A stretch of 36,833 bases of DNA, taken from a virus. The notes beneath the pieces are model-generated. The model did not search any database. It had not been told where the DNA came from and worked only from the letters and a program-made list of their open reading frames with translations. Location of the stretch: positions 1 to 36,833 of the IMG/VR virus record IMGVR_UViG_3300033148_002120; one strand, given 5' to 3'. The first letter of the stretch is position 1; every line of letters starts with the position of its first letter. Made by a program: the position numbers and the translations under genes. Of the stretch, positions 2,445 through 30,466 are shown piece after piece.

Positions 2445-2938
2445 CCCTGCTGACCGTCACCCGCCTGCTGGAATCCCGCTTGTATCTTCGCCGTGTCCCG
2501 TTCGCCTTGAGAGCCACCGAATAGAAAATCGATGATCGTGTTGACCTTTGCCGACATCGCACCGAATACCGTTGATATAAGCGAGACCGCCCAGGCTGGA
2601 ACGTCTGCCGACGCGCCGCCTATCCATTGAACCACAAGTACCACCATGAGTACAGAAATCCCTAGGTACCCTACGAGAAACACGATAGCGAATACTTTTT
2701 GTAAAGTGCTATCATGCATGTACATCTCGCGTGCGCTTTGCCTGTCTTTCAAAAGCCGGTTGTCGGCTTCCATTGATAGCTGTTTGAATTTTAACTCAAT
2801 TTCCTTGAGAGCAAGCGCCGCCTGTGCTTTCTCTTCGCCTGTATTGACAAACCGGTCTACCGTCGCGCCTACTGACTCGACTATTTCCGCGCCCGAATTG
2901 CCTATCATTTTCCCGAGCCATGTACTAAAATTACCCAC
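2441..2938 (-). CDS. Holin-like membrane protein
   Basis: The start is taken at GTG 2938 because GAGGAG lies eight bases upstream. The longer frame to 3007 has no ribosome site. The 165-residue protein has an N-terminal GNSGAEIVESVGATVDRF segment and a charged coiled region with AREMYMHDSTLQKVFAI. Two hydrophobic segments follow (FAIVFLVGYLGISVLMVVLV and WAVSLISTVFGAMSAKVNTI), ending in a polar tail. This matches the general plan of the three-helix phage holin family that sits at the end of late operons. It would make membrane holes to release the lytic enzyme. Its last residues are encoded by one copy of the 21-bp inverted repeat, so its native C-terminus is uncertain. Confidence 0.65.
   Translation of the reverse strand: MGNFSTWLGKMIGNSGAEIVESVGATVDRFVNTGEEKAQAALALKEIELKFKQLSMEADNRLLKDRQSAREMYMHDSTLQKVFAIVFLVGYLGISVLMVVLVVQWIGGASADVPAWAVSLISTVFGAMSAKVNTIIDFLFGGSQGERDTAKIQAGFQQAGDGQQG
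2467..2487 (-). repeat. 21-bp inverted repeat, right copy
   Basis: Exact reverse complement of 1290-1310, inside the 3' end of the holin-like gene. The pair encloses about 1.2 kb carrying the promoter, operator and four small plus-strand genes. Inversion between them would exchange the C-terminal tails of the integrase remnant and the holin-like protein. Confidence 0.9.
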
Positions 2939-2950
2939 TATAACCGCTCC

Positions 2951-3021
2951 TCTAATCGCTTGACAATATCTACAACACTTAGCACTAAGTGTGGTAGAAA
3001 AACACACATCTAATCGCTTGA
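2951..3021. promoter_or_regulatory. Direct repeat and palindrome upstream of holin-like gene
   Basis: A 13-base sequence (starts TCTAATCGC) occurs at 2951-2963 and again at 3009-3021. Between them is the palindrome ACACTTAG-CA-CTAAGTGT (2975-2992). The segment separates the secreted-protein gene from the holin-like gene on the minus strand. It could be an mRNA hairpin tuning holin translation, or the scar of a small duplication. Confidence 0.45.
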
Positions 3022-3351
3022 TATTACCGACCAGGTTCTACAACGAAAGATCGACACGGGACCGGTCGGGTATTCCCATTTGCCCATATATAAGGCGTAA
3101 ACAACTATCACCGCACCTACCTCGACCCCTGGCCTATCAACAAACCAAACCAGCACCAACCAATCATCGGGCAGGCGCAAAACTGCCCAGGCACCGTAAA
3201 TCGGATCGTAGTCCAGCCTCTCAACCGTTCCAGTTATCCTGTACCCACTTCCGGGTTCGGGAGGGAAAGCAACGAGCTCTAGCCCCTGAGTTGCCGGCCA
3301 TACCATTGCCGCGACGAGGATAAAGAGAAAGATTGACGCTATCCGTTTCAT
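3010..3351 (-). CDS. Secreted or membrane-anchored small protein in lysis region
   Basis: A 113-residue ORF with a GGAAGCGG-like site just before ATG 3351. Its N-terminus MKRIASIFLFILVAAMVWP is a clear signal peptide or anchor (basic residues, then a long hydrophobic run). The remainder is beta-rich with paired W/Y residues (YGAWAVLRLPDDWLVLVWFV). It sits between the phosphoesterase and the holin-like gene. A spanin-like role is possible by position only: I see no lipobox cysteine and no coiled coil. Otherwise unknown. Confidence 0.5.
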   Translation of the reverse strand: MKRIASIFLFILVAAMVWPATQGLELVAFPPEPGSGYRITGTVERLDYDPIYGAWAVLRLPDDWLVLVWFVDRPGVEVGAVIVVYALYMGKWEYPTGPVSIFRCRTWSVISSD

Positions 3352-20179: not shown

Positions 20180-22288
20180 TTATCCCTCCCGTGCCTCGAA
20201 TGTTTCTTGTGATTCAACGCGTACGGTTTCGGGCGTACCAAATACCGGTGTAAACGACCGCGTCCCGTTCGGGTGCTCTTCGGCGGCCAGTATTTCGGCA
20301 TCGGCAAAAGACACAATCGAGCCGTCAATCGATATGCAGTACTCGCACGAGTTCTCAAGCTGTCCGTCTGCGATCTGCACACCCCCTATGGTGTCGCTCT
20401 GTTTGTACGCCTGAAGCGTTGAGACGTTTTGCGCATATTTGGTTTCTGTTCGCGCTATTACATGCGCCCGGGTGCGTGAATCTCTCCACGGTCCTGCGGC
20501 GACTTGGTTCTCTATTCGTGCCGCTACTGCCGGCGGTCCCTCGCCCAACTCCCGCGCCTCTGCGATGGCGTTAAACATCGCTTCTTTGGTTTGGGCACTG
20601 AGGTCAATCAACCCCATACGCTTACCACTGCGCTCGAGGACCGTTACTTCCATCGGCGCGGTGAGATCAACGCCTAATCCGATAACCGCGTTGATCGTGG
20701 TTACAGTCTGCGCTGCGGTTTTGAGGTAGTGTGCGCCGTATCCGAGTAAGACCTCGACCTCGGTTTCCTGCTTCAGCTTCAGCTCAACCGCAGCGATGAG
20801 CACTTTGTCCGCGAGATCGATCTTGGTTTCCGTTTCCGCGCCTTTTTGACTTTCAAGAAATAACTCCGCCGCTCGTTTGCCGTATGCATCAAATCGCGGC
20901 CTAAGTTCTTTTTCGAATGCCTCTGCGAGGTAACCCTCGTCCTTCATAAACTGTGTCACGAGCCGCTGTTGCCACCCTTCGTTCTTTGTCGGGACAACGG
21001 ACTTCATGCTCTTCTTGTCGTCCTCGGGTTCCGCTTCAGGCTCAGGCTCAGGCTCAGGCTCAGGCGTCGGTATCGTCGACTCGTTTTCGGAAACGAGTAC
21101 GACATTAAACGGATATCGGTAGACCTGGTCGGATGGCGTGCTCTCTATACCGAGTAACCGCTTGCCATGCTCCCTGGTAATCAACCCCTTTTCAAAGAGT
21201 GTCGCCGTTCGTTCAGCTTTTTGGGTCTCATCTTCTTGCAGCACCCGAACCCTCGAGTAATCCCAGGCGACCTTTAGTTTTTTAGGATCGGCCTCGAAAT
21301 CCGGTAATAGCTGACTCGCGATATCGTCGCCCATGAATCGCTGCATCGGGATGATGCCATTCTCATAGGCTTGCTCTCGGAGTTCGCGCATTGTCGCGCC
21401 GACTTTCGTGTTCTCCAATCCCGACCCGAAACCGATAACCGCCGCGGGAATGCCGGTACACGCTGATACCCGCTCCTCGGGAATCCTCCGAAGTTTGCTT
21501 AAATCGAGCTGCTGAGGCGAAAAACCGAACTGCTCGACTTTGGTTCTGGCTTTAAGCGCCAATGGCTCTCCACGTTTATCACCTGCAAACTGGCTCTTGA
21601 TATACTCCTTGACCGCCGTGAGCTGCTGATCACCCACAACTGAATCCGAATCCGGACTAATCACGACACCCGGGATACCGGAGTTCCGCAGCAGCGAGGC
21701 CGTGAAGTTCGCGCCCTCGTCGTCGGTGAAGATCTCGCGCATGAGGGTTTTAAACGGTGACAACCCCTTGCGCACGTTGTGCGGATCCAGCCCAAAGCGG
21801 AAATGGATCACATCCTCGGGCAGCAGCTCTATGGTTTTCCCGTTGACCTGATATTTGTAGTAGTCGATAAAATTATCACTACCCGTGCGCTGCATCGGGT
21901 CGATCATCCAGTGCGGCACATACCAAAGCTCTTTAACTTCAAGCTGCCTCCCTCTGACTTTTATCCCGTAGGCGTTTCCATCCAGCGTGAAAGAAGCGGC
22001 CATAGCCGACTCAAGCACGAGCCCGGAGTAATACGGATTCGGGCGCCGCCACAGGTCGAGCATCGCGTGATCGTAGACGGGTTCGTCCTCGGTATCTAAA
22101 AGCATCAGCGGCGCTTCGGGGAAATTCCGCATGATCCACATAACCGCAGCCATCGCCACGGAGCTACCCGTTATTTTTCCGATCTGTGCGCTGTAATCAA
22201 ACTGCGTTCGAGGCAGAAACCAAGTCACGTTGCTCGAGGCGTGCACCATGCGGCTGAATGCTTTCATCAAAATCCTAAATGGATTCAT
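20180..22288 (-). CDS. Portal protein fused to a minor head (Mu F-like) domain
   Basis: The start is taken at ATG 22288, overlapping the terminase stop. About 702 residues. The first 400 are an HK97-type portal (DLWRRPNPYYSGLVLESAMA, LLPEDVIHFRFGLDPHNVRK, GLSPFKTLMREIFTDDEGAN, LDLSKLRRIPEERVSACTGI). Next is a Pro-Glu linker (TPEPEPEPEPEAEPEDD), then a second module ending in ARTETKYAQNVSTLQAYKQS and a Cys pair in SCEYCISIDG. This second module is the SPP1 gp7/Mu gpF-like head morphogenesis protein usually encoded by a separate gene. The portal forms the DNA entry ring. Fusion would fix a 1:1 ratio of the two. Confidence 0.9.
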   Translation of the reverse strand: MNPFRILMKAFSRMVHASSNVTWFLPRTQFDYSAQIGKITGSSVAMAAVMWIMRNFPEAPLMLLDTEDEPVYDHAMLDLWRRPNPYYSGLVLESAMAASFTLDGNAYGIKVRGRQLEVKELWYVPHWMIDPMQRTGSDNFIDYYKYQVNGKTIELLPEDVIHFRFGLDPHNVRKGLSPFKTLMREIFTDDEGANFTASLLRNSGIPGVVISPDSDSVVGDQQLTAVKEYIKSQFAGDKRGEPLALKARTKVEQFGFSPQQLDLSKLRRIPEERVSACTGIPAAVIGFGSGLENTKVGATMRELREQAYENGIIPMQRFMGDDIASQLLPDFEADPKKLKVAWDYSRVRVLQEDETQKAERTATLFEKGLITREHGKRLLGIESTPSDQVYRYPFNVVLVSENESTIPTPEPEPEPEPEAEPEDDKKSMKSVVPTKNEGWQQRLVTQFMKDEGYLAEAFEKELRPRFDAYGKRAAELFLESQKGAETETKIDLADKVLIAAVELKLKQETEVEVLLGYGAHYLKTAAQTVTTINAVIGLGVDLTAPMEVTVLERSGKRMGLIDLSAQTKEAMFNAIAEARELGEGPPAVAARIENQVAAGPWRDSRTRAHVIARTETKYAQNVSTLQAYKQSDTIGGVQIADGQLENSCEYCISIDGSIVSFADAEILAAEEHPNGTRSFTPVFGTPETVRVESQETFEAREG

Positions 22289-23649
22289 ACTGGCACCCAC
22301 TGAAGAGCCATTGTCAAATAATTAAATGCTCCGCTTGCTGCGTCTGCTTGGTCATCGTGCGCGTATTCGCTATCGTCTTCGGACAGGTTCTCAAGTTCGT
22401 TGATAAAGGGTTCGTTCCAATCCCCCTCAACGAGCTTGACATTTCCCGCTTGGGCCTGTGCGGCAAGGGGCCGCCAGCGCAAATACTTTTTACCCGTTTC
22501 CCTCGTAGTCTCGATCGAATACCCTGCAAGTAATACCAAATAATCGTGTATCTCGACCTTTCCTGCTTGGGCCGGGTCCTGAAAAAGAACGACTACGCAT
22601 TCGCTACCGTCTCGACTGGCGGTGTTTTTGATCGACTTCTTAACCGCATTCGGTTTTCGGCGAAGGCGTGATACGTCAGTGATAAAAAACGTATCGCCTG
22701 TGCGCTGCATCTTCACGCCGGCGGTCCAGTCGGGGTCTGTGTTTTCGGGATTCGGCTCAGTCGCCGCGCGGTCCCAGCACCGGCACTCTCGGTCGGCAAC
22801 CGGTGCGGCGTCTACAATCTCAAAATCGTCGCGGGAAAATATCGTCCCTGCCGTCGCCCTTACTTTCCAGTTGCCTTTGAGCAATCGCAGCCGTTCAACC
22901 CGTGGCAATGCCATCAAGTTAGCGAGATACCCGGGGTCGGCTTCGAGCCCGATTTTATTGTCATAGATACTCGAGGGAATGAACGTTACCGACTTCGGCT
23001 GTAGCTCAGGTTTGCCTATTCCCCCAGCGTAGTCTATAGCCTCCGCCCTAGTATCAAACCACTCGATATCGTCGCTGGATCTAATCATCCACCGCAAAAC
23101 ACCGGCTTTCGCGGGGTCTGCATATTCGCCATCTTCATCGAGCCACCAGCGAATAAACTTTTTTACCCATGTATCCGGATCGGGGTTTGTCGTGGCTCGT
23201 ATATACGGAGCTATGCCGCACATCGAGCGGTTACGAGACAACAGGTAAAAGAACTGCTTCTCGGTGAAGTGCGTGAGCTCGTCGTATCCGATCAAAGGGA
23301 TTTGTGAGCCCTGCCAATCGTGGATGTTCTTGTCGTACTGCAAATGATGAAACTCAATTTTTGATGTTGTGCCAAACCGCCACCGGTATATCGGGTGCGA
23401 AGTCGGTGTCCCGCCAGCGTGGGGATACAGCGTGCTCGAGGTATCCCATAACCCGCCCTCATTCGTAATCTGCGGGCTCGTGCGCCTGAAAATGGTCCCG
23501 CCGAATCCCTGCACGCCAATATGCCGTAGTGGCTCCATCAACAATGCGTAGGTTTTCCCGCCGTATGCAGCTCCGCCATATATGCCGATATCCGCCGGCG
23601 TTGCAAGAAAAGCCTCTTGCGGCCCAGGCTGTGGCTTAATCTCCGTCAT
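22285..23649 (-). CDS. terL: Terminase large subunit
   Basis: The start at ATG 23649 (MTEIKPQPGPQEAFLATPAD) lies just inside the small subunit gene, whose TAA is at 23636. 454 residues. The ATPase half has a Walker A-like GGAAYGGKTY and the Walker B acidic pair in IPLIGYDELTHF. The nuclease half shows the acidic metal-binding residues expected of an RNase H fold, in CWDRAATEPNPE, FQDPAQAGKVEI and AHDDQADAASGAF. It pumps and cuts DNA at the portal. The same frame stays open upstream to 24174, but only as a shadow of the small subunit gene. Confidence 0.93.
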   Translation of the reverse strand: MTEIKPQPGPQEAFLATPADIGIYGGAAYGGKTYALLMEPLRHIGVQGFGGTIFRRTSPQITNEGGLWDTSSTLYPHAGGTPTSHPIYRWRFGTTSKIEFHHLQYDKNIHDWQGSQIPLIGYDELTHFTEKQFFYLLSRNRSMCGIAPYIRATTNPDPDTWVKKFIRWWLDEDGEYADPAKAGVLRWMIRSSDDIEWFDTRAEAIDYAGGIGKPELQPKSVTFIPSSIYDNKIGLEADPGYLANLMALPRVERLRLLKGNWKVRATAGTIFSRDDFEIVDAAPVADRECRCWDRAATEPNPENTDPDWTAGVKMQRTGDTFFITDVSRLRRKPNAVKKSIKNTASRDGSECVVVLFQDPAQAGKVEIHDYLVLLAGYSIETTRETGKKYLRWRPLAAQAQAGNVKLVEGDWNEPFINELENLSEDDSEYAHDDQADAASGAFNYLTMALQWVPV

Positions 23650-24099
23650 CGACTTGGTCCCTGCCGTTGTCGGGAATGTAAATGCACACAGCAACGCCAA
23701 CGTCGCCAGAATGGTTGACATCGATCGCTTGCGTGCGGAGCTTGTGGATGTCTGTGAGGAGCTCCGTCGCTCGCATGCGCGTCGTGTTGTCCTCGAAGTC
23801 ACCAAGACATTCGGCCTGGAAGAACTTCGTGACCATCGATTTGAGGCGGAGATCCAGCTCGTAATACACGCGATCGATGCCCAGATTGAACGCCTCGAGG
23901 AGCTGCTCGTTGCCGACTTTTTTTTTATGTTTGCGAGCATGCGGCTGCCGTTTACCCTAGCAGTGCTGTCTTTTACGTCTGGCTTTATATGATGATATGC
24001 CTCGGTGGCGTTCAAGCACTCGATATATTTGAACCAGAACCTTCGCTCCCGCGGCTTCAGCGACTTGAGAATATCAGCAGTTGTTAGCGTTTCGTCCAA
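23636..24099 (-). CDS. terS: Terminase small subunit, frame interrupted at a run of nine A
   Basis: The gene starts at TTG 24099 (GGAG seven bases upstream): LDETLTTADILKSLKPRERR, then FWFKYIECLNATEAYHHI and RVNGSRMLANIKKK, a helix-turn-helix N-terminal domain. At 23925-23917 the coding strand has nine consecutive A followed by G. In the zero frame the sequence then becomes Ser/Arg-rich nonsense. One base back it reads VGNEQLLEAFNLGIDRVYYE, then LDLRLKSMVTKFFQAECLGD, and continues to the stop at 23636. Either one A is a consensus error or ribosomes slip -1 on A-AAA-AAG. The zero frame runs on, without a stop, into the terminase large frame. Confidence 0.8.
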
Positions 24100-24118
24100 A
24101 GCTCTACTCCAATGGCAT

Positions 24119-24142
24119 AAAAAAGGCGGCCCGTAGGCCGCC
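24119..24142 (-). terminator. Rho-independent terminator before the late genes
   Basis: On the minus strand, GGCGGCC-TACG-GGCCGCC is a perfect 7-bp GC stem with a 4-base loop, immediately followed by six T. It lies between the sigma-like gene and the terminase small subunit, so it can separate early/middle from late transcription. Confidence 0.85.
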
Positions 24143-24154
24143 GCAGGAGGATGA

Positions 24155-24187
24155 GCGCGGGGAGAATTAGCCACCCCGGGCTTTTTT
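24155..24187 (+). terminator. Plus-strand hairpin with T-run
   Basis: GCGCGGGG (24155-24162) pairs with CCCCGGGC (24174-24181) with one mismatch, followed by six T (24182-24187) on the plus strand. It faces opposite to the terminator beside it. No plus-strand gene precedes it, so any transcript stopped here would be antisense to the terminase region. Confidence 0.4.
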
Positions 24188-27789: not shown

Positions 27790-28113
27790 TTACCTCCTTG
27801 CGTAAATCTCTGCTTTCGGCCCGCGTAACATCCGGCCATCATTCATCATTACAACTGGCCAAAAATCGGTGTTAGCTTCCTCCTCGGTCGCTACGCTGTC
27901 GGGCGGTTCTGTTAGGTGATGCCGCTTGTGGCAATCAGTGCACAACACAACCAAATCAATGTCCGGCTCGTTCCAAAGATTCGCGTAGCAGTTGTGATGT
28001 ACGTTTAGGCGCCTGTGGCGGCGGCACAGAATACATCGACCACCAGCCTTTTTTATTGCGCTCTTGCGTCTACGTTTCCAGTGTGTTGACTGCAAATACT
28101 CTGCGTAAGTCAA
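27790..28113 (-). CDS. HNH endonuclease
   Basis: A 107-residue protein from TTG 28113 with GGGGTG upstream. The first CxxC (CILC) and the HNH core LNVHHNCYANLWNEPDID ... VLCTDCHKRHH give the second CxxC and the metal/catalytic histidines. N-terminal basic region (HWKRRRKSAIKKAGGRC) is expected to grip DNA. HNH proteins of this size near terminase or replication genes are common in phages and may assist packaging or nick DNA. Confidence 0.85.
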   Translation of the reverse strand: MTYAEYLQSTHWKRRRKSAIKKAGGRCILCRRHRRLNVHHNCYANLWNEPDIDLVVLCTDCHKRHHLTEPPDSVATEEEANTDFWPVVMMNDGRMLRGPKAEIYARR

Positions 28114-29129
28114 TCGTTCACCCCGTATAATTTTTTATACATGTTAAAGTGTGAATTCCCCCCCCCTATATCAACGTTTTTATCTGCCGAAAAAGTACGT
28201 TTCGGTTGCGTTTTTGACAATCGTCCCTCATATAATAGGTGATGTTTGCGCCAATGTTTGACCAGTTCGGCGGGTAGCCCATCAGCCACTCCACGAATTG
28301 TGGGTTCAACTGCCCACCATTGCCCGCTGACATTGAGCGGCGTTTGTCTTCGGTTATCTCGCCCGTCATCCTTCATTTTCTGTAGGTGGTTGAAATCTCT
28401 CGTTCCGCCGTTGAGTTTGCCGGATGCTACTGGTGTCGGGAAAGCCGCTATCGCATCCGGTAGATCGTTGCTGCGTGCCGAATTGAAATACAGTTTTGCT
28501 TGCGCCCCTCGCTGGTCTCCGTCGCGCGCTTGCGGCGTTGGCCATTTCTTCACATGGTCGTTGAGTTGATGCGATCTCGTTTTGTCGATTTGATTCATAC
28601 TGCCCGATTTCCAATCCCGGGCTGATGGGGTCGGGAACCAACTCCCCTTGTCTCGGCTTCGCATACTCGGCGCATTCTGATTTACTTTGTTCGTTGGGGT
28701 ATGCAACAATCCAGATCCTTTCTCTCCTGTGCGGAGCACCCACGTCCTCTGCTCGTATATCCTGCCATTCCGCGTCATACCCGATCTCGGCAAGCGAACC
28801 AAGCACAACGTCAAGTCCTCGAAAAGTGATCGCTCCAACGTTTTCCATGATTGCGAATCGTGGTCGTAAGTCCCTAATAATTCGCCACATTTCAAACCAA
28901 AGACCAGACCGACTCCCGGTGATTCCTTCTCCCCTTCCGGCGATCGAAATGTCCTGGCAGGGGAAACCTCCGGTGATAATCCAATCACTATCCCTGGTTT
29001 CTGTCTCTCCGCCTCTACGGCCTGACTCAAGTAAAAACTGTGCCGGTTCCCCGTTAAAAGGTTTCTTACCTTCTTGTTGTCTCTTCCGGCTCCAGGCATG
29101 TTTGCGCCTGGCGTAGGCCAATGTTTCAA
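28110..29129 (-). CDS. Out-of-frame ORF overlapping the C5-methyltransferase gene
   Basis: From TTG 29129 (AAGGAG six bases upstream, 29141-29136) to the stop at 28110: 339 residues, lying almost entirely inside the methyltransferase gene in another frame. It is not a random shadow. It contains LGTYDHDSQSWKTLERSLFE, LPRSGMTRNGRIYEQRTWVL and GSGLLHTPTN, then WFPTPSARDWKSG, KKWPTPQARDGDQ and AAFPTPVASG. As I remember it, this is the pattern of a phage protein family often found with Dcm-like methyltransferases: SxxWRT...RSGMTRNG...PTPTARDW...QLNPxWVEWLMGxP. The last motif occurs here in a third frame (28372-28166). A one-base change near 28366-28372 would join them. Function unknown. Confidence 0.5.
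   Translation of the reverse strand: MKHWPTPGANMPGAGRDNKKVRNLLTGNRHSFYLSQAVEAERQKPGIVIGLSPEVSPARTFRSPEGEKESPGVGLVFGLKCGELLGTYDHDSQSWKTLERSLFEDLTLCLVRLPRSGMTRNGRIYEQRTWVLRTGEKGSGLLHTPTNKVNQNAPSMRSRDKGSWFPTPSARDWKSGSMNQIDKTRSHQLNDHVKKWPTPQARDGDQRGAQAKLYFNSARSNDLPDAIAAFPTPVASGKLNGGTRDFNHLQKMKDDGRDNRRQTPLNVSGQWWAVEPTIRGVADGLPAELVKHWRKHHLLYEGRLSKTQPKRTFSADKNVDIGGGNSHFNMYKKLYGVND
28166..28372 (-). pseudogene. Displaced C-terminal piece of the overlapping ORF
   Basis: A short open frame reading MTGEITEDKRRSMSAG, then GGQLNPQFVEWLMGYPPNWS. The motif QLNPxFVEWLMGxPxxW is what I would expect at the end of the protein encoded at 29129-28110, but it lies in a different frame. In the frame of that ORF the same bases read QWWAVEPTIRGVADGLP, which resembles the C-terminal motif of C5 methyltransferases. 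Both pieces are one base out of step with their expected N-terminal partners. Confidence 0.55.
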
Positions 29130-29301
29130 TTGTGACTCCTTTTATATCGCCAAGCGGTATCGCGTCGGGAAATCGCTTTCGGTAAAGCTCCACACAGTAC
29201 GGGTCGATCTCGCTGAAATAGTGGTTTTCAAACTTCATCCCTGCCCAGTAAGCACCTAGGGCAAAACCACCTATTCCGCTAAATAAGTCGATATAGTTCA
29301 T
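28366..29301 (-). CDS. C5-cytosine DNA methyltransferase (Dcm-like), C-terminus displaced
   Basis: 311 residues from ATG 29301. Motif I DLFSGIGGF (5-13), the catalytic PCQ loop GGFPCQDIS with Cys115, motif VI ENV (153-155), and motif VIII DVGAPHRRERIW are all present. It transfers a methyl group from SAM to cytosine C5. After the target-recognition region it stops at 28366 before motifs IX-X. A typical continuation, QWWAVEPTIRGVADGLP, is found one frame over just downstream. Without it the enzyme lacks the closing motifs and may be inactive. It overlaps the upstream methyltransferase by four bases. Confidence 0.85.
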   Translation of the reverse strand: MNYIDLFSGIGGFALGAYWAGMKFENHYFSEIDPYCVELYRKRFPDAIPLGDIKGVTIETLAYARRKHAWSRKRQQEGKKPFNGEPAQFLLESGRRGGETETRDSDWIITGGFPCQDISIAGRGEGITGSRSGLWFEMWRIIRDLRPRFAIMENVGAITFRGLDVVLGSLAEIGYDAEWQDIRAEDVGAPHRRERIWIVAYPNEQSKSECAEYAKPRQGELVPDPISPGLEIGQYESNRQNEIASTQRPCEEMANAASARRRPARGASKTVFQFGTQQRSTGCDSGFPDTSSIRQTQRRNERFQPPTENEG

Positions 29302-29999
29302 ATCAACGTAGTCTGCCGCGTAAAGTGATAGATTCGGTCTTGCATCGCGGCGTAATAGTCGGGGTCTATTTCAAAACCAATATACTTTCGGTTCAAGTCA
29401 ATCGCCGCGACTGCTGTTGTCCCATGTCCCATAAACGGGTCAAGAACAACCATCCCGGGTTCTGTGTGTAGTTCGATAAAGTGTTTCATCAGCTCGATAG
29501 GCTTAGCCGTCGGGTGTTCGCCTTTTTGCGGTATGACATTCCCGATACGCACAATATTTGATATGGTCTTGCGGTTAGTAAACCAGTTATAGTCTGTCTT
29601 TGTTTTGCTCCCGACTATAATGGTTTCGTAAGATGGTCGATACTTCCACCCCAAACCGATTGTTTTTTTATCCCATATGACCGTCTGTATCAGGTTGAGC
29701 CTCTTGACAAATTCCATCGTAAAAATTGCTGTGACCGGAGTTTTGCCACCACCACAACAACAACAACAACAACAACCGGAAAGTGTTAGCACGCGTGCAA
29801 ATTCGTCAATCCATAAAGGCAGATTTTTTTTCCACGTCTCAAAATCGTCATTTGCTATTTTCTTGTGATTTTCTGTCCGGTTGGACAGAAAATCAATTCC
29901 GTATGGCGGATCTGTTAAAATCAAATCTATACTTTCATCCGGTATCTGCCGCATCCCTTCCATGCAATCCATTAGATACACTTCATTCAGTTCAAGCAT
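29298..29999 (-). CDS. DNA methyltransferase, N6-adenine/N4-cytosine type, with poly-Cys motif
   Basis: The start is ATG 29999 (MLELNEVYLMDCMEGM) with GGAGAAGGA directly upstream. The longer frame to 30026 has none. 233 residues. The catalytic motif DPPY (LTDPPYGIDF, residues 30-33) comes before the SAM-binding motif DPFMGHGTTAVAA near the C-terminus, the beta-class order. DPPY favours N6-adenine methylation. Between them is seven consecutive Cys followed by GGGKTP. I recall the Cys-rich GGCCCCCCGGG block as typical of this phage methylase family, so it is probably not an error. It would protect the phage genome from host restriction. Confidence 0.85.
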   Translation of the reverse strand: MLELNEVYLMDCMEGMRQIPDESIDLILTDPPYGIDFLSNRTENHKKIANDDFETWKKNLPLWIDEFARVLTLSGCCCCCCCGGGKTPVTAIFTMEFVKRLNLIQTVIWDKKTIGLGWKYRPSYETIIVGSKTKTDYNWFTNRKTISNIVRIGNVIPQKGEHPTAKPIELMKHFIELHTEPGMVVLDPFMGHGTTAVAAIDLNRKYIGFEIDPDYYAAMQDRIYHFTRQTTLI

Positions 30000-30007
30000 T
30001 CCTTCTC

Positions 30008-30466
30008 CTACGCCGTTCTCGTCCAATACCGCATGGTTCCCAACCTCGCCAACTTAAACTGTTCAACGTCGGTAAGGTCCCGCGCCAACGCGTTCTTTTT
30101 GGCTTTCCGCGCAATCTCTAACTCATCTTTTAGGTTCGTCGCTTTTGGATCATAGAGTATTATCCCAGCTCTTGACGGGACTAACTCAAGAAATGGCTCG
30201 CGCATTTCTACCGGTCCCGCAAACCACAGATATTTTATTCTTTGGCTATCGTGTCGATGACGTTTCAAACGGTCACGCTTTAGGTCCGATTTCGAGACCT
30301 TGATTTCTATTTCATGGGCTACGCCTGTTTTGCTTACTGCCAAAAGATCCAGTTCATAGAGAAAGCCGAGTCCCCAGGTTACATTCCTTACGACCAACAT
30401 CTTAGTGAAATGCCAGCGGTGTATTTTGTTCGTTGCTATGGCATGTGCTATGTCAGTTTCCGTCAT
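30008..30466 (-). CDS. PD-(D/E)XK nuclease-like protein
   Basis: 152 residues from ATG 30466 with a GGGGGGG run before it. The pattern ELDLLAVSKTGVAHEIEIKV has an acidic residue (D) followed by E-x-K on the next strand, as in the PD-(D/E)XK fold. A basic helix follows (SKSDLKRDRLKRHRHD). I recall MmcB-type repair proteins and restriction-like nucleases with this arrangement. It ends nine bases before the methyltransferase start. A partner or repair role is plausible. The substrate cannot be told. Confidence 0.5.
   Translation of the reverse strand: MTETDIAHAIATNKIHRWHFTKMLVVRNVTWGLGFLYELDLLAVSKTGVAHEIEIKVSKSDLKRDRLKRHRHDSQRIKYLWFAGPVEMREPFLELVPSRAGIILYDPKATNLKDELEIARKAKKNALARDLTDVEQFKLARLGTMRYWTRTA

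Follow-up and report, generated by a model that had tools for sequence, protein, structure and literature searches.

The locus lies on the minus strand of a 36,833-nt stretch of virus DNA (IMG/VR record IMGVR_UViG_3300033148_002120, hereafter the window), where two reading frames overlap. The first, frame A (28366..29301), carries motifs I-VIII and encodes the catalytic subunit of a C5 cytosine methyltransferase, with matches to PF00145 (8.5e-41) and TIGR00675 (4.9e-36). Motifs I, IV (PCQ), VI (ENV) and VIII all lie in this single frame, as expected of a C5 methyltransferase, and the 3' end is truncated by a frame change. The second, frame B (28110..29129), is the +1 frame of A and starts at a TTG codon (29129), six bases after a Shine-Dalgarno-like AAGGAG site (29130..29144) that lies within A. 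Frame B is matched by phrog_1008 over residues 43-245 (3.1e-19), and a search of B against Pfam and NCBIfam matched no model, methyltransferase profiles included. A sequence-only reading of this DNA had described both frames as family-like and B as having its own start, and on these points it was correct.

The overlap can be divided into a dual-coded region R1 (approximately 28696..28905, minus strand), in which A runs from SGLW to RERIWIVA (motifs V-VIII) and B encodes its N-terminal beta-strand region, and a variable region R2 (approximately 28373..28695, minus strand), with PTPxARD repeats in the frame of B and A only open. Ahead of PCQ, A in the window contains an additional stretch (29040-29129, TIETLAYARRKHAWSRKRQQEGKK...) that is absent from relatives; in frame B it reads WPTPGANM, resembling the PTPxARD units of the variable region. 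Upstream lies an N4/N6 DNA methyltransferase gene (29298..30026, minus strand; PF01555, 3.4e-36), the stop codon of which overlaps the start of A and which contains a 21-base triplet repeat (29754-29774) encoding seven consecutive cysteines (LSGCCCCCCCGGGK). An HNH-endonuclease-like gene (27790..28113, minus strand; phrog_8048, phrog_119) lies directly downstream.

Both frames lack their C-terminus. The expected end of A, QWWAVEPTIRGVADGLP, is found in frame B, which as sequenced continues into the frame expected for the C-terminus of A. The displaced C-terminus of B (motif IX, GGQLNPQFVEWLMGYPP) is found in a third frame, C (28166..28369, minus strand), together with a remnant A tail, VLFRQIKTLI; thus, both proteins shift one frame in the same direction. 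The GGQLNPQFVEWLMGYPP stretch aligns with columns 259-281 of the 329 columns of phrog_1008, the C-terminal columns that are missing from B (3.9e-8), and the N-terminal part and C-terminal motif of this family are therefore both present in the window, split over two frames by an indel. Stop codons in frame C (the last at 28375-28373) and frame A (28368-28366) confine a single indel breaking both frames to 28366..28372, in agreement with the interval proposed from the sequence alone. A run of nine G (28158-28166, minus strand) directly follows the remnant C-terminus, in the gap ahead of the HNH gene.

It had also been proposed that one base change at this site would repair both proteins. This holds for B, which would regain motif IX, but not for A: reversing the indel would not restore A, as none of the six frames of the window contains motif X (xLGNxxVP), which a catalytic polypeptide is expected to have. 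At its site we find a scrambled remnant with an insertion of ~14 bases relative to locus L017, in which LLFRQIKDLI matches the remnant tail in frame C. The window copy is broken and, judged from its sequence, predicted to be inactive, since the indel parts both proteins from their ends (motif IX in the case of B) and motif X has been lost as well.

For the window only, it is possible, at somewhat less than even odds, that the break common to both frames is an indel introduced by sequencing or assembly and that the pair is intact in the phage itself. On the same contig a second frame is broken at the A9 run 23918-23926, that of the small terminase, and R1 on the window branch evolves no faster than in relatives, so that the damage is either recent or partly a contig error. 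Against an artefact, motif X is scrambled as well and a ~14-base insertion is not typical of read errors, the 28372-28366 interval is not within a long homopolymer, and other genes in the window are intact over as many as 1657 codons.

The small-terminase frame (minus strand, around 24174-23600) has its continuation, VGNEQLLEAFNLGIDRVYYELDLRLKS..., one frame over, and the listed 629-aa ORF at 22285-24174 consequently joins the start of the small terminase to the large terminase; this looks like a contig or mutation indel. Elsewhere on the contig, an integrase-like ORF (626-1342) of 238 aa terminates after STGLRLGEIQ, at the point where a tyrosine recombinase would be expected to go on into its catalytic half, and no continuation was seen in the other two frames.

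A profile of B only retrieved at least 80 viral loci and at least 80 loci from prokaryote genomes, which together with the earlier loci gave 186 sequences matching B. Among the matches listed, all 186 overlap a C5 methyltransferase, with B always in the +1 frame of A, and neither a standalone B nor an in-frame A-B fusion is found. One locus, L037, has an additional, better-scoring methyltransferase in another frame close by. Conversely, all 99 loci selected with A only carry B at +1. By record title, the genome loci among the matches listed derive from Pseudomonadota, Bacillota, Actinomycetota, Planctomycetota, Spirochaetota, Bacteroidota, Verrucomicrobiota, Synergistota and others, and E. coli prophages and an Enterobacter plasmid contain a more distant branch with the same two frames open. 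Acinetobacter phage ABMM1, Synechococcus phage S-H1 and Mycobacterium phage ShroomBoi have both frames open across most of the methyltransferase gene. In Samy and Euratis, two Streptomyces phages, and in Arthrobacter phage ArV1, A ends after motif VIII and B continues.

Public annotation overlooks this arrangement. In phiBT1 (NC_004664.2, L299) gp9.1 is annotated as 'may be inactive' and the B gene is not called, and in E. coli NZ_CP041110.1 (L302) the gene is annotated as two incomplete pseudogene pieces, yet frame A is open throughout. Several loci also contain HNH genes. In L010 an HNH endonuclease gene (2791-3174) follows B, between the end of motif IX and motif X, and frame A stays open across it to motif X, which gives another overlapping reading; an out-of-frame HNH gene within a methylase has been described for phage Applejack (PMC12613952). 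HNH-domain ORFs are inserted in frame between methyltransferase motifs I-III and PCQ in L017 (~2600-3110) and L025 (~2700-3210), the former preceded by a promoter-like TTGACA..TATAAT, and a short TAA-bearing insert at the PCQ codons accompanies these insertions.

The openness of B was compared with 1000 synonymous codon shuffles of A, in which protein and codon usage are kept. None of the 1000 shuffles of the window sequence leaves B open across the 204 codons that match the profile (4.4 stops expected), and across the family B is stop-free in 186/186 loci listed, where shuffles lead one to expect 4.6 stops on average. The A+2 frame, unlike B, contains 11 stops on average in the family loci. 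A start codon of B preceded by a Shine-Dalgarno-like site is present inside A in 72% of 183 loci, versus 39% in synonymous shuffles (maximum 48%).

As B is the +1 frame of A, position 3 of an A codon is position 2 in B, and position 1 in A is position 3, the wobble position, in B. Substitutions were compared over three regions: R0, from motif I to PCQ, which precedes the conserved stretch of B; R1, the overlapped part between SGLW and motif VIII; and R2, from the variable region to the end of B. At fourfold sites of A with an unchanged residue, divergence is 0.504 in R0 and 0.280 in R1 (disjoint pairs, A-selected loci), about half as much in the overlap. Divergence in R1 is below that in R0 in 27 of 31 pairs (p = 3e-5), a result with which the mixed set agrees, and the ratio of changes at position 3 to position 1 drops from 2.75 (R0) to 1.65 (R1) in the A-selected loci. 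In a single-frame control, Dcm, fourfold divergence shows a small drop (0.66 to 0.57, five disjoint pairs only) and the position 3 to position 1 ratio climbs instead of dropping (2.9 to 3.9, from the same five pairs only); the Dcm relatives that were examined have no open +1 frame. Synonymous change is thus reduced in the overlap compared to the same gene outside it, as expected for selection on two frames.

In R2 the periodicity flips to B. Differences per site at A positions 1, 2 and 3 are 0.358, 0.279 and 0.282 (4426 codons), and in close pairs the counts at positions 1:2:3 are 33:7:6, 26:4:6, 27:6:3 and 15:3:1, so that the fastest codon position is position 1 of A, the wobble position of B. 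Together, these patterns indicate constraint on A in R0, on both frames in R1 and on B in R2; in this last region A appears, from its substitutions, to be just kept open. The constraint on B in R1 is weaker than the family average in the nearest relatives of the window (position 3 to position 1 ratio ~2-4.5). A further test, for A-synonymous changes being conservative in B, showed no consistent separation of the overlap from the control region; since the A-selected set gave a signal in the control region too, this test does not count as proof.

Frame B is under selection and both frames are maintained. That selection acts on A only, with B conserved through the conservation of A and codon bias, is contradicted by these data and scarcely credible. 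It could draw on the fact that B always accompanies A, on DNA words that tie both frames together (ADADGAR in one is PTPTARD in the other, and WWxxEP is GGxLNP), and on the lack of a Pfam or NCBIfam model for B. Yet it does not account for a frame that is open against 4.6 expected stops, for an overlap that halves a fourfold divergence that falls little in Dcm, or for a flip in periodicity in the variable region that selection on A alone leaves unexplained. The pattern that would have pointed to a mere shadow of the gene, selection in the methyltransferase frame only, is not what is found, since homologues of B always overlap a methyltransferase and both frames are under selection. The arrangement is maintained by selection in hundreds of phages and prophages, and databases mostly annotate one protein only.

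The division of motifs over the two frames is consistent. A motif IX-like end in B combined with motif X in A occurs in 201 of 233 distinct loci, and no locus in this set has a canonical motif IX in A; for 24/233, the pattern used detected no motif IX in B. Five of the 233 have both IX and X in B and an A that ends early, the division known from M.AquI, which the window does not share. The family thus has a motif IX-like end in the smaller and no canonical motif IX in the larger polypeptide, a division like that of M.EcoHK31I, and in the window this stretch lies in frame C through the indel. In most loci B ends in LNPxWVEWLMGFP, which resembles LTPRECARLMGF of Dcm; in a comparison of B with a Dcm profile the best position is motif IX, at negligible significance (probability 0.2%, E 0.32).

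Structure predictions are in line with this division for A. The AF2 model of A aligns with M.HhaI over 198 residues (Z 23.9, rmsd 2.1), last helix included, and residues 170-278, in the shadow of the variable region of B, are predicted to be disordered (pLDDT ~30). The AF2 model of B is weak overall (pLDDT 63, pTM 0.30), with confident strands in the dual-coded part (block means 91, 77, 79 and 84) and a block mean of 83 for the motif IX helix. Comparison of B with solved structures by sequence gave chance matches to apolipoprotein E only, and a VIA-align fold search returned nothing at Z 2 or more; as the B model used is of low confidence, the latter is uninformative on the fold of B.

The smaller polypeptide of M.EcoHK31I comes from an alternative reading frame inside the gene of the larger one. 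Both M.EcoHK31I and M.AquI consist of two polypeptides split in a manner such as that found here (PMC3404938). In M.EcoHK31I (YGGCCR) the larger subunit has motifs I-VIII and X and motif IX is in the smaller polypeptide, as in most loci of the family; its recognition domain, however, was predicted in the larger subunit (PMC3404938), whereas the periodicity in R2 follows B here, which would place the variable region in that subunit. The window copy further differs from M.EcoHK31I, as its larger polypeptide lacks motif X and B is separated from motif IX. M.AquI (CYCGRG) is split after motif VIII with IX and X in the second subunit, the arrangement of Samy, ArV1 and Euratis; most loci here, in contrast, keep motif X in A, with A open through the whole of B. 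Relative to the single-polypeptide, single-frame enzymes M.HhaI, M.HaeIII and Dcm, A is homologous over motifs I-VIII and aligned at the final helix, and the end of B resembles motif IX. The sequence family of B is phrog_1008, which PHROGs names 'DNA methyltransferase'; this name suggests a methyltransferase in its own right, in contrast to the lack of any match of B to a Pfam or NCBIfam methyltransferase profile. A literature search on overprinting with cytosine methyltransferases found no papers.

The same arrangement was noticed in 2015 in the methylase segments gp6 and gp7 of Corndog and other Cluster O mycobacteriophages (PMC4351075), where coding potential and an internal ribosome-binding site were reported for the overlap, and mass spectrometry detected neither product (PMC4351075). 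The authors left undecided whether it reflects two products, a frameshift, a hop or an intron (PMC4351075). A programmed frameshift (or hop or intron) from A to B would yield a single-chain methyltransferase, with B not translated on its own, and would suit Samy, ArV1 and Euratis, in which A ends just after motif VIII and B runs to motif X. We nevertheless consider it unlikely, because the ~70 codons of B upstream of motif VIII are open and constrained although a fusion product would not need them, B starts with ribosome-binding sites that are enriched inside A, and fusion in most loci would lose motif X, which is located in A. In addition, RT-PCR in Cluster O did not find splicing (PMC4351075). 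The present comparison favours two products.

With a probability of roughly 0.8, we consider the locus to be the damaged phage version of a C5 methyltransferase made of two polypeptides, the genes of which overlap on one strand, A for the catalytic and B for the target-recognition subunit. The overlap itself, selection on both frames, the distribution of motifs and the enrichment of start sites are results of the computation. In the proposed enzyme, A would provide motifs I-VIII, to which intact relatives add the motif X helix packing on the same domain, and B, probably translated from its own ribosome-binding site inside A, would combine the beta-stranded N-terminal part, a variable, putatively target-recognizing region and motif IX. 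The two subunits may then assemble into a single enzyme for the methylation of phage DNA, which would probably protect it from host restriction. Intact relatives keep A open through the variable region of B apparently just to reach motif X, and in the few relatives in which A stops ahead of motif IX, B carries motif X too. The division between A and B fits a two-polypeptide enzyme, as it matches the way in which C5 methyltransferases divide structurally: good complementation is obtained when the split falls between motif VIII and the recognition domain, and joining the C-terminal helix to the large domain leaves two pieces approximating the two domains (PMC5944983).

Alternatively, B could be a separate accessory protein, for example anti-restriction or regulatory, overprinted on a methyltransferase. 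The confident beta strands predicted for its N-terminal part and the lack of a solved relative by sequence or fold would be compatible with such a protein. This appears improbable, as no locus has a canonical motif IX in A and most have a B that ends in the motif IX-like sequence, motif X is also in B when A ends early, and natural enzymes split likewise are known (PMC3404938). A second enzyme subunit is the simplest interpretation of B, which carries the motif IX that A lacks, plus the variable region. The suggestion that the second protein arose by overprinting stands in part: only B upstream of motif VIII looks overprinted from the substitution patterns, downstream of it B looks constrained and A merely open, and B taken whole most likely belongs to the enzyme as its second subunit instead of being an unrelated newcomer.

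The arrangement is already known from M.EcoHK31I, M.AquI and the Cluster O phages; new are its constancy across a family, the evidence for selection on both frames and the assignment of the variable region to the frame that mostly goes unannotated. Two-polypeptide C5 methyltransferases have been regarded as rare exceptions, and here every relative examined has the arrangement, be it in E. coli genomes or in phages and prophages across many bacterial phyla. The same-strand overlap is long, and selection is clearly divided along it. Two products would also offer an answer to the question left by the Cluster O authors in 2015. The second gene is often unannotated and the first sometimes labelled inactive or a pseudogene. 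It is likely that a large class of phage and prophage C5 methyltransferases has been overlooked, being heterodimers with the subunits in two frames of the same ~200 codons and the recognition domain in the usually unannotated frame, and that many single-chain, truncated or pseudogene methylases really miss a mis-called partner gene. If both subunits are needed, the annotated gene alone could neither predict nor express the methylation specificity of these enzymes.
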